DNA from: Acidiferrimicrobium sp. IK
GTDB taxonomy: Bacteria; Actinomycetota; Acidimicrobiia; Acidimicrobiales; Palsa-688
Assembly: GCF_025499425.1 (NCBI RefSeq)
Contig: NZ_JAIMCB010000008.1
Coordinates: forward strand, 62,001-126,000
Direction: 5' to 3'
Length of the DNA stretch: 64,000 nucleotides
The translations under genes were made by a program, and so were the position numbers. Shown piece after piece: positions 18,059 through 21,799 of the stretch. The notes under the pieces are model-generated. The model did no database searches. It was not told the origin of the DNA and was given only the letters and a program-made list of their open reading frames with translations. Numbering within the stretch: the stretch's first letter is position 1; every line of letters begins with the position of its first letter.

Positions 18059-18988
18059 GTGAGCAAGGTCCTTCCTACGCCCGACGTGGCTGCTTCCGGC
18101 TCCGGGACGTCACTCGCGATCGGGTTGGTCCGCCTGGCCCGCCCGAAACAGTGGACCAAGAACGTGCTGGTCCTGGCCGCGCCCGGTGCCGCTGGGGTCT
18201 TGACCCACGGCGGTCCGCTCGGCCGGTCCCTGGCTGCGCTGGCGCTGTTTTGCGTCGTCGCGTCGGGCACCTACTTCCTGAACGACGCGCTCGACGTGGC
18301 CGCCGACCGGGCCCATCCGACCAAGCGGCTGCGCCCCATCGCGTCGGGCGTGGTGAACGTGCGCCTGGCCTACGCGCTCGGGGTGGGGCTGCTGGCGACC
18401 GGCGTTGCGCTTTCGGCGCTGATCAACTGGCACCTGGCCGTGGTCCTGGCGATCTACGTCGCCGTGCAGTTCGCCTACAGCTACTACCTGAAACACCAGC
18501 CGATCTACGACATGGCCGCGGTGGCGTCGGGGTTCGTGCTGCGGGCCATCGCCGGCGGCGTCGCCGCGGAGGTGGTCATCTCCCAGTGGTTCCTCGTCGT
18601 CGCCACCTTCGGCAGCCTTCTCATGGTCGCCGGGAAGCGGGTGGCGGAGCACGCCGAGCTCGGCCACGACCGCGGCGCGCACCGGGCCACCCTCGACGCG
18701 TACAGCTCGACGTTCCTGCGCACCGTGCTCGGCATCGCCGCCACCGGCGCCATCTTCGGTTACTGCCTGTGGGCTTTCAGCCTGCAGACGGCCCTGCAGC
18801 ACCACGCCGACCCGATCTGGTACCAGCTGTCGATCGTCCCGATGATCGTGGCGCTGCTGCGCTACACGTTCCTCGTCGAAAGCGGTCAAGGCGCGAAACC
18901 CGAGGACCTGGTGCTCTCCGACCGGTCCTTGCAGGTGCTCGGCTTGGTGTGGGCCGTGCTGTTCGCCCTCGGCGTCTACGCCAGCTGA
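18059..18988 (+). CDS. ubiA: Decaprenyl-phosphate phosphoribosyltransferase (UbiA superfamily)
   Basis: This membrane enzyme transfers 5-phosphoribose from PRPP to decaprenyl phosphate, the first step toward decaprenylphosphoryl-arabinose, the arabinose donor for arabinan. The 309-residue protein has the UbiA signature [10 protein letters not shown] followed by [12 protein letters not shown] near residues 80-105, a second polar motif around [10 protein letters not shown], and about eight to nine membrane segments. The H-P-x-K-R-x-R-P-I tail and the immediate DprE1/DprE2 neighbours separate it from quinone or heme prenyltransferases. The mycobacterial equivalent is Rv3806c. DprE1 starts 5 bases after the stop. 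Confidence 0.9.
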
Positions 18989-18993
18989 CCGCG

Positions 18994-20409
18994 ATGACGT
19001 CGGACAGAGCCTTGCTGACCGGGTGGGGCCGGACCGCGCCGACCGCCGCGAGGATCATCGACGCGACGGACCCCGCCGCGGCCCGCCAGGCCGCGGCGGG
19101 CGCCGGACCGCGCGGCGTGATCGCCCGGGGCCTCGGCCGTTCCTACGGCGACGCCGCGCAAAACGCCGGCGGCGACGTGGTGGTCACCACCGGCATGGAC
19201 CGCATCCTCGACCTGGACCTGGAGACCGGCCGGGTCCGGGTCCAAGCCGGCGCCAGCCTGGACTGGCTGATGCGGACCCTGCTGCCCCTCGGCTTCTGGC
19301 CGCTGGTCACGCCCGGAACCCGCCAGGTCACGATCGGCGGCGCCATCGCGTCGGACATCCACGGCAAGAACCATCACCGCGACGGGACCTTCGGCGCCAA
19401 CGTCGAGTCGATGGTGATCGACACGCCCGGGGAGGGCGTGCTGACCGTGGCGCCCGACAAGGACCCGGACGCGTTTTGGGCCACCGCCGGCGGGATGGGC
19501 CTGACCGGGGTCATCCTCGAAGCCACGATGAGGCTCCTGCCGGTCGAGACCGCGATGATGCGAGTCGACAGCGAACGCCTCCGCGACCTCGACACGCTGA
19601 TGGCCCGGATGGTCGAATCCGACCGCGACCATCGCTACTCGGTGGCGTGGATCGACTGCCTGGCCCGGGGCGCCACGCTCGGTCGCTCGATCCTGGAGTT
19701 CGGTGAGCACGCCGCCCTCGACGACCTGCCGGCAGGCAAACGGTCCCCGGCCCGGGCGCTCGCGTTCGCGCCCTTCGACCGGGCGTCGGCCCCGCGGTGG
19801 GCGCCCAACGGCCTGCTCAACCGGTGGACCATCGCCGCGTTCAACGAGGTTTGGTACCGCAAGGCGCCGGCCAAGGCGGAGGGCCACCTGGTCCCGGCCA
19901 GCTTTTTCTTCCATCCCCTGGACATGGTGTCGGGATGGAACCGGATCTACGGCCGGCGGGGGTTCCTGCAGTACCAGATGGTGGTCCCCGACGGCGCCGA
20001 GTCGACCATGCGCCACGCCATCGAAGCGCTGAGCGACGCCCGCTGCGCGTCGTTCCTGGCCGTGTTGAAGCGCTTCGGGCCGTCCAACCCGGCGCCGCTG
20101 TCGTTCCCCTCCCCGGGCTGGACGCTGGCCCTCGACATCCCCGCGGCCGCCGCCGGCCTGGCTCCTTTGCTCGACCGCCTCGACGACATGGTCATCGAGG
20201 CCGGCGGACGGGTGTACCTCTCCAAGGACTCCCGCCTGCGCCCCGAGCTGCTGGAGGCGATGTACCCGAGGCTGCCGGAGTGGCGGGCCGTGCGGGACCG
20301 CCTCGACCCGGAGCGCCGCATGCAGTCGGACCTGGCCCGCCGCCTGCCGATCCTCGATCCCCTGCCGCGGGCCGGCTCGACACCCCCCAACGGAGCGTTC
20401 CCATCGTGA
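18994..20409 (+). CDS. dprE1: Decaprenylphosphoryl-beta-D-ribose oxidase DprE1
   Basis: DprE1 is the FAD enzyme that oxidises C2 of decaprenylphosphoryl-ribose. The 471-residue protein has the FAD-binding region [13 protein letters not shown] near 45-57, [16 protein letters not shown] near 113-128, and V-Y-L-S-K-D-S-R with the active-site Lys411. In mycobacterial DprE1 the benzothiazinone-reactive Cys387 lies in a P-G-W-x-x-C context; here the equivalent residue is Ala379 in P-G-W-T-L-A-L-D. Enzyme activity should be retained, because that Cys is not catalytic. The stop overlaps the dprE2 GTG as GTGA. Confidence 0.92.
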
Positions 20410-21167
20410 AAGACGCCCTCGGCGCCGTGCAGTCGGTCCTCGTCCTAGGCGGCGCGTCGGAGATCGGCGTGGCCATCGCAGCCGAGCTGGCCGGTCCCCG
20501 CCACGCGACTGTCGTCCTCGCCGGGCGCCATCCCGACGCGTTGGACGCGGCGGCCGCCCAGGTGCGCTCCGCCGGCGCCGGGCGGGTCGAGACCCTGCCG
20601 TTCGACGCGGCCGACACCGACAGCCACGAGGCGTTCGCCGAGAAGGCGTGGGCCCTCGCCGGTGACTTCGACGTGGTCGTGGTGGCGTTCGGGCTCCTCG
20701 GTGACCAGGCGGAAGCGGAGGCCGGCGGGGACAGCGCCGTGCGGGTCGCGCAGACCAACTACGTCGGGGCGGTGTCGATCTCGCTGGTGGTGTCGCGGCG
20801 GCTGCGGGCCCAAGGGCACGGCACGCTGGTCGTGCTGTCCTCGGTGGCCGGCGAGCGGGTCCGGCGGGCCAACTTCGTGTACGGCTCGACCAAGGCCGGC
20901 CTGGACGGCTTCGCCCAGGGTCTCGGGGACTCTCTGGCCGGTACCGGCGCCGGGGTCTTGATCGTCCGCCCCGGGTTCGTGACCGGCCGGATGACCGCCG
21001 GCATGGACACCGCCCCGATGGCCACCACCCCCGAAGCGGTGGCCAAGGCCACCGCATCAGCGATCGCGTCCGGCAAGGAGCTGATCTGGGTGCCAGGCAC
21101 CCTGCGTTTCGTGTTCGCCGCGTTCCGTCACCTGCCGCGCCCCCTCTGGCGGCGACTGCCCGTGTGA
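20406..21167 (+). CDS. dprE2: Decaprenylphosphoryl-2-keto-erythropentose reductase DprE2
   Basis: DprE2 is the SDR that reduces the DprE1 product with NADH to give decaprenylphosphoryl-D-arabinose. The 253-residue protein has the cofactor motif L-G-G-A-S-E-I-G near 14-21, a catalytic Ser in V-L-S-S-V-A-G-E-R and Y-G-S-T-K (YxxxK), and a C-terminal hydrophobic/basic stretch. The dinucleotide-binding variant and the two coupled overlaps, with dprE1 upstream and the HAD gene downstream (both GTGA), support the assignment over a generic SDR. Confidence 0.9.
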
Positions 21168-21799
21168 GCGCGGTTCCCGACCGCAGCGGCGCCCGGCCCG
21201 GGGTAGCCGCGTTCGACTTCGACGGCACGCTGGTCCCCGGCGACAGCCTGGCCCCCTTTCTCCGACGTCTCCTCGGACCCCGCGCCCTGCCCGCCATCGG
21301 CGCGTCCACCCCCGCCATGGCCGGCGCCTACCGCCACGGCGGGCGCGACGCCGCCAAGGCCGCGCTGTTGTCGCGGATCCTCGCCGGCGTCCACGCCGAC
21401 ACGGTCGAACGTCACGGCCGCGCCTACGGCCCCGGCCTGCAGCACCGCATCCGCCCCGCCATGCGCCAGCGCCTCGACTGGCACCGCTCCCGGGGTCACC
21501 GCCTGGTCCTGGTGTCGGCGTCCCTCGCCGCCTACCTGGAGCCCTTCGGCGCCGCGGTCGGCTTCGACGAGGTCATCGCCACCCGCCTCGAGGTCAACGC
21601 GGCGGGGCACCTGACCGGGCGGCTCCTCGGCGCCAACGTGCGCGGCGAGGAGAAAGCGGTCCGCCTGCGGACGGCGATCGGCGAGGAGCCCGTCGAGCTG
21701 TGGGCCTACGGCGACAGCGCCGGCGACACCGAGATGCTGGCCATGGCCGACCACCCGATGCGCGTGGGGCGGCGGGCCAAGCCCCCGGCGTCGCCGTAG
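21164..21799 (+). CDS. HAD-IB family phosphatase, candidate decaprenylphosphoryl-phosphoribose phosphatase
   Basis: The 211-residue protein has HAD motif I F-D-F-D-G-T-L (about 18-24), motif II V-L-V-S-A-S-L near 119, and motif [15 protein letters not shown] near 181, as in SerB-like HAD-IB phosphatases. It starts with GTG overlapping the dprE2 stop (GTGA), so it is made together with the arabinose-donor enzymes. That pathway needs a phosphatase between the phosphoribosyltransferase and DprE1. In mycobacteria a PAP2-type protein (Rv3807c) is proposed, and none is seen here. I infer that this HAD enzyme may supply the step. Confidence 0.75.

Follow-up and report, generated by a model that had tools for sequence, protein, structure and literature searches.

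Introduction

Which enzyme removes the 5-phosphate from decaprenylphosphoryl-5-phosphoribose (DPPR) before the sugar is epimerised to arabinose? The biosynthesis of decaprenylphosphoryl-arabinose (DPA) is a validated tuberculosis drug target, and to our knowledge the phosphatase reaction is the sole step of the pathway without a firmly assigned essential enzyme. Current mycobacterial models assign the DPPR step to a PAP2 protein (PMC11127046). The initial annotation of the locus described here had called this step unsettled in mycobacteria, and rightly so: the PAP2 protein Rv3807c is termed putative and, unlike dprE1, dprE2, ubiA and prsA, is non-essential in knock-downs (PMC5964476). An older review reports that deletion failed in Corynebacterium (PMC3229680).

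The question is raised by a window of 64,000 nucleotides of Acidiferrimicrobium sp. IK, the whole stretch of DNA that was analysed, in which a stand-alone HAD-IB phosphatase gene follows the genes for a phosphoribosyltransferase, DprE1 and DprE2. Based on sequence comparisons, we consider it likely that this four-gene operon makes polyprenyl(decaprenyl)-phospho-D-arabinofuranose, with the HAD-IB protein removing the 5-phosphate before DprE1 and DprE2 act.

Layout of the operon and identity of its genes

The four genes are arranged in the order UbiA-DprE1-DprE2-HAD-IB, all on the plus strand (Table 1). The chain that had been described for them, with a gap of 5 bases between UbiA and DprE1 followed by two GTGA overlaps, proved correct to the base, and both DprE2 and the HAD gene start with GTG. 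The first three products scored above the cut-offs of NCBIfam equivalog models: 372.8 bits for the phosphoribosyltransferase (NF008978, decaprenyl-phosphate phosphoribosyltransferase, cut-off 207), 580.4 bits for DprE1 (NF053785, cut-off 500) and 343.2 bits for DprE2 (NF053786, cut-off 250). Moreover, the UbiA-family protein matched the solved M. tuberculosis DPPR synthase (8j8j) with an E-value of 2e-66, and its ND-x-x-D-x-x-x-D motif reads NDALDVAAD. With orthologues of DPPR synthase, DprE1 and DprE2 all present, the locus qualifies as a DPA biosynthesis operon. The nearest public relative, an Acidimicrobiaceae MAG (L007), has the same four-gene order and 73% in DprE2.

Table 1 Features of the operon and its surroundings (positions within the window).
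Feature	Position	Strand	Evidence or remark
dTDP-sugar 3,5-epimerase-like gene, upstream neighbour	17451-18002
UbiA-family decaprenyl-phosphate (polyprenyl-phosphate) 5-phosphoribosyltransferase, Rv3806c orthologue	18059..18988	+	NF008978; PDB 8j8j
Stop codon of UbiA	18986-18988	+	TGA
DprE1, FAD-dependent decaprenylphosphoryl-ribose 2'-oxidase	18994..20409	+	NF053785
dprE1/dprE2 overlap	20406-20409	+	GTGA
DprE2, SDR decaprenylphosphoryl-2-keto-pentose reductase	20406..21167	+	NF053786
dprE2/HAD overlap	21164-21167	+	GTGA
Stand-alone HAD-IB phosphatase, proposed DPPR 5-phosphatase	21164..21799	+	PF12710, TIGR01490, motifs, AlphaFold
HAD motif I, AFDFDGTL, residues 16-23	21209..21232	+	nucleophile D18 at 21215-21217, acid/base D20; D18, D20, T22 invariant
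N-x-R-x-x-x-K, N158 to K164	21635..21655	+	K164 = HAD motif III lysine; N158, R160, K164 invariant in alignment A1
GDP-mannose dehydratase-like gene, downstream neighbour	21831-22811

By the equivalog models, UbiA, DprE1 and DprE2 are orthologous to their counterparts in the mycobacterial DPA pathway (Rv3806c / Rv3807c / DprE1 / DprE2). The difference lies in the phosphatase slot. Loci of the Mycobacteriales type pair a PAP2 gene with UbiA, and among Mycobacteriales and their relatives an Rv3807c-type PAP2 gene was found to adjoin UbiA in a Rhodococcus locus (L203) and in ten other loci. The window operon, in contrast, has no Rv3807c-type PAP2 gene beside UbiA, and the HAD gene occupies that slot.

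Family, motifs and proposed mechanism of the HAD protein

The HAD protein gave 143.7 bits with PF12710 and otherwise matched models at the subfamily level only, namely TIGR01490 (HAD-IB, 142.2 bits, cut-off 98.3) and TIGR01488 (101.9 bits, cut-off 45). These scores, together with four catalytic motifs carrying D18, D20, S118, K164 and D184/D188, place it in HAD-IB. In an alignment of 21 orthologues, D18, D20, T22, S118, K164 and D188 were invariant. The AlphaFold model (pLDDT 90.6) resembled SerB-type HADs and 3fvv.

Compared with SerB / TIGR01490 HAD-IB phosphatases in general, the fold is the same, whereas the genomic association differs and the N158/R160 motif is missing from the three paralogues compared. 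These three HAD-IB paralogues of the class, one of them from the window genome itself, carry Y-x-Y-G-x-x-K in place of N-x-R-x-x-x-K.

The HAD protein, which is small and predicted to be soluble and cytosolic, would take off the 5-phosphate by the standard HAD aspartyl-phosphate mechanism, with D18 as nucleophile, D20 as acid/base, K164, and D184/D188 for Mg2+. DprE1 and DprE2 would then epimerise C2. In this role the protein would stand in for the PAP2 protein Rv3807c of Mycobacteriales and for the UbiA-fused HAD domain of many Proteobacteria. We infer the substrate, the reaction and the cytosolic location of the window HAD, and a soluble HAD would fit a cytosolic place for the phosphatase step.

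Relation to known UbiA-HAD systems

A HAD phosphatase acting together with a UbiA-type phosphoribosyltransferase has a published precedent. In Citrobacter youngae O1, ORF15 consists of a HAD phosphoribose-phosphatase (PRP) domain fused to a polyprenyl-phosphate phosphoribosyltransferase and makes lipid-linked ribofuranose in vitro (PMC11127046, 2024). When the HAD domain carries the D18A mutation, the 5-phosphorylated lipid piles up, with a little dephosphorylated product still being formed; the same study noted DprE1/DprE2 homologues in arabinofuranose systems (PMC11127046). The Citrobacter protein and the window operon have in common a HAD-family phosphatase with HAD motifs, working with a UbiA-type phosphoribosyltransferase in what we propose to be the identical reaction; they differ in that the phosphatase is fused in Citrobacter and is encoded by a separate gene within the DprE1/DprE2 operon here. 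The architecture of ORF15 is that of the NCBIfam NF006088/PRK08238 proteins. HAD-UbiA fusions were also found on proteobacterial plasmids, and in Salipiger the fused gene is followed by genes for GtrA, an FAD-binding oxidoreductase and an SDR protein, which is the DprE1/DprE2 pattern.

In a profile comparison the operon HAD and the fused domain were related with an hhalign probability of 99, and the plasmid-borne fused domains matched the operon-HAD profile weakly, with 17-25 bits. An N-x-[R/K]-x-x-x-K stretch before the last acidic motif is common to both (N-L-K-G-x-x-K in the fused domains); with the few outgroups compared, it is no more than suggestive as a diagnostic PRP signature. In a phylogenetic tree, which left out the published C. 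youngae PRP domain, the fused PRP domains formed a clade of their own (100/99). The stand-alone operon HADs, whether linked or unlinked, formed a less well supported group separate from both the fused domains and the paralogues. A simple split, by which the operon HAD would have come loose from a fused PRP domain, was rejected, since the two fall into separate clades of the tree. Hence, the fused PRP domains constitute a precedent by analogy within HAD-IB and not by orthology.

The UbiA - HAD-IB phosphatase - GtrA stretch of the Lactococcus cremoris plasmid pF27D (L233) offers a further comparison. There, too, a stand-alone HAD-IB gene directly follows a UbiA-type phosphoribosyltransferase gene, but the HAD reaches only 54.7 bits with the operon-HAD profile and no DprE1/DprE2 is annotated in the pF27D stretch. 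With a fused HAD-UbiA protein shown in Citrobacter and a stand-alone UbiA-HAD pair in Lactococcus, the principle of a HAD with UbiA is thus already known, the former since 2024 (PMC11127046). The novelty is limited to the variant, a stand-alone HAD with DprE1/DprE2 in an actinobacterial class.

Several other genes were seen next to phosphoribosyltransferase genes. On a Marivivens plasmid (L201), a divergent PAP2 (DUF212) gene at 5840-6259 overlaps the end of the phosphoribosyltransferase gene and is a candidate phosphatase. On a Haloterrigena plasmid (L202), a PHP-domain protein encoded at 5928-6608 follows the phosphoribosyltransferase in a haloarchaeal cluster and is possibly another phosphatase for the step. 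A DUF6069 gene immediately precedes UbiA in several MAGs of actinobacteria, Nanopelagicales among them (L014, 3192-3749; L020, 1025-1528; L027, 3228-3734). In L014 and L020 it overlaps UbiA by a few bases, and no HAD or Rv3807c-type PAP2 was seen at these two loci.

Co-occurrence of the HAD with the pathway

We surveyed 198 genomes of the class to which the window genome belongs, which, judging by the nearest public relative, is very probably Acidimicrobiia. DprE1 and the phosphoribosyltransferase were each found in 80 of them, and 82 were counted as pathway genomes, namely the 80 with DprE1 and two (G158 and G194) with the phosphoribosyltransferase only. Over the whole set the HAD profile split orthologues (at least 166 bits, 68 genomes) from all other HADs (at most 98 bits). 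An orthologue was present in 65 of the 82 pathway genomes compared with 3 of the 116 others (Fisher p 3e-32, uncorrected for phylogeny). The three HAD-positive genomes without clear UbiA/DprE1 matches were G004, G021 and G107, and in G107 fragments of UbiA and DprE1 adjoin the HAD gene. Within genus g4, one genome (G031) has both the HAD and the pathway and another (G008) has neither; in genus g64, UbiA and the HAD are present together in G158 and G194 and both are missing from G048 and G072. Likewise, in the window genome's own family the window genome has the HAD and the pathway, and G193 has neither. Beyond the class, no HAD orthologue was detected among 236 genomes sampled from the phylum, 20 of them DprE1-positive members of other classes. 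A contig labelled Acidobacteria (ATN2; L013) carries DprE2 and a HAD that falls into the operon-HAD clade, perhaps owing to a mislabelled contig or a mixed bin.

No Rv3807c orthologue was detected in the 198 genomes. The best PAP2 protein of the class reached 60.8 bits and the best of the window genome 39.8, compared with 227-278 bits for true Rv3807c orthologues in leave-one-out controls, and no PAP2 gene was seen beside UbiA or DprE in the class. The initial annotation had suggested looking for conservation of the HAD gene where Rv3807c-like proteins are missing, and these counts bear it out. Neither a HAD orthologue nor an Rv3807c orthologue was present in 17 of the 82 pathway genomes, so another enzyme can carry out the step. 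Inspection by eye of the operons of these 17 genomes revealed no recognisable phosphatase. A 610-aa UbiA frame in L122 was without a second Pfam domain. A PAP2 gene suspected in L023 from a loose motif scan was discarded, as what lies between DprE2 and UbiA there resembles a UDP-sugar dehydrogenase gene; the same applies to L032.

Alternatively, an unlinked PAP2 protein might perform the DPPR step, with the HAD acting elsewhere in the pathway, e.g. on a by-product or in recycling phosphorylated lipid. This would agree with the 17 pathway genomes that get by without the HAD, with the generic PAP2 proteins of the window genome (at least six matches) and with the use of PAP2 in mycobacterial models (PMC11127046). 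We nevertheless regard it as unlikely, because no PAP2 of the class nears the scores of Rv3807c orthologues, none adjoins UbiA or DprE, and the fused enzyme that has been demonstrated is a HAD acting on exactly such a product. If the HAD is indeed the DPPR phosphatase, a small single-domain protein would replace a membrane PAP2 across a class and would be a tractable enzyme to make the DprE1 substrate in vitro. It would also suggest seeking a second, perhaps HAD-type, phosphatase in mycobacteria, in which Rv3807c is reportedly dispensable.

Linkage of the HAD gene to pathway genes

The HAD gene was co-directional beside the operon in 43 of 81 DprE1 regions, and in 41 cases it lay within ~100 bases of a core gene. 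The most frequent order was that of the window, UbiA-DprE1-DprE2-HAD (27 regions), followed by HAD-UbiA-DprE1-DprE2 (11), UbiA-DprE1-HAD (3) and DprE1-DprE2-HAD (2). Where the pathway is split, the HAD gene was found near DprE2 (L236, L237 and L245) or with UbiA. The latter pairs have no DprE genes alongside in L241 and L242, and in L247 and L248 they are followed at once by the end of the contig. Family f5 retains the HAD without linkage to the pathway genes. Among ~92 DprE-bearing neighbourhoods, the HAD was the sole frequently recurring non-core partner, with 53 loci; the next real gene families numbered ~13, and larger clusters in this count were antisense or overlapping frames of core genes. 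This unmatched recurrence near DprE genes indicates that the operon association is not due to chance, and recurrence in varied orders is stronger evidence than one tight operon. Co-occurrence, linkage, the missing Rv3807c orthologues and the intact catalytic residues together support the earlier proposal that the HAD is a good candidate for the pathway phosphatase, with DPPR as its presumed substrate.

The UbiA-HAD pairs that lie away from DprE genes or at contig ends could also mean that lipid-linked ribofuranose is the end point or a side branch of the pathway, with the HAD serving a ribosylation system and DprE1/DprE2 being auxiliary, much as lipid-linked ribofuranose arises without DprE in Citrobacter O1 (PMC11127046). 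This seems quite improbable given that overlaps or a 5-base gap join all four genes in the window and that its DprE1 and DprE2 score above equivalog cut-offs; the phosphatase role of the HAD would in any case stay the same. Slightly less probable still is that the HAD is a phosphoserine or histidinol phosphatase of the usual kind, placed in the operon by happenstance: the closest solved structures are SerB proteins and 3fvv, and there are weak matches to histidinol-phosphatase models, far below their cut-offs, but the co-occurrence is specific to the pathway, the linkage recurs in different orders, the gene is missing from related genomes without the pathway, and the N-x-R motif is absent from the other HAD-IB paralogues that were compared, proteins found widely in the class.

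Possible destinations of the arabinofuranose

The initial annotation had concluded from the operon that this lineage has arabinan-like wall polymers. EmbA/B/C (PF04602) and AftA (PF12250) were both absent from the window genome, which is 94.7% complete, and EmbA/B/C were present in 3 of the 198 class genomes. An AftD-like protein of 290 bits is encoded outside the window (G000 contig C1, 208866-210851; L254), and the genome has GT87 proteins with at most 72 bits; GT87 is the family of AftC. GtrA-family proteins of the window genome are candidates for export. A literature search on arabinose in the walls of Acidimicrobiia returned nothing relevant. The conclusion hence stands only in part: an arabinan of the mycobacterial type is not indicated, but the AftD-like and GT87 proteins make it plausible, despite the missing EmbA/B/C and AftA, that some envelope glycan carries arabinofuranose.

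A wider reading, for and against which we find the balance about even, is that the whole actinobacterial class relies on a stand-alone HAD, recruited independently, to make lipid-linked arabinofuranose, and that the product feeds an arabinofuranosylated surface glycan via AftD-like enzymes, without EmbA/B/C or AftA. In that case unrelated enzymes would have taken over the phosphatase step on several occasions (PAP2, divergent PAP2, fused HAD, separate HAD and perhaps PHP in haloarchaea).

Further observations in the window

Downstream of the operon, at 22849-27704, two minus-strand proteins are encoded that by eye are SpoIID-like and subtilase-like and whose C-termini consist of repeated units. 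In an alignment of DprE1 proteins, the window DprE1 has Ala (GWTLALDIP) in place of the Cys that benzothiazinones target in mycobacterial DprE1 (GWNVCVDFP). Based on this replacement, natural insensitivity to covalent DprE1 inhibitors is predicted.
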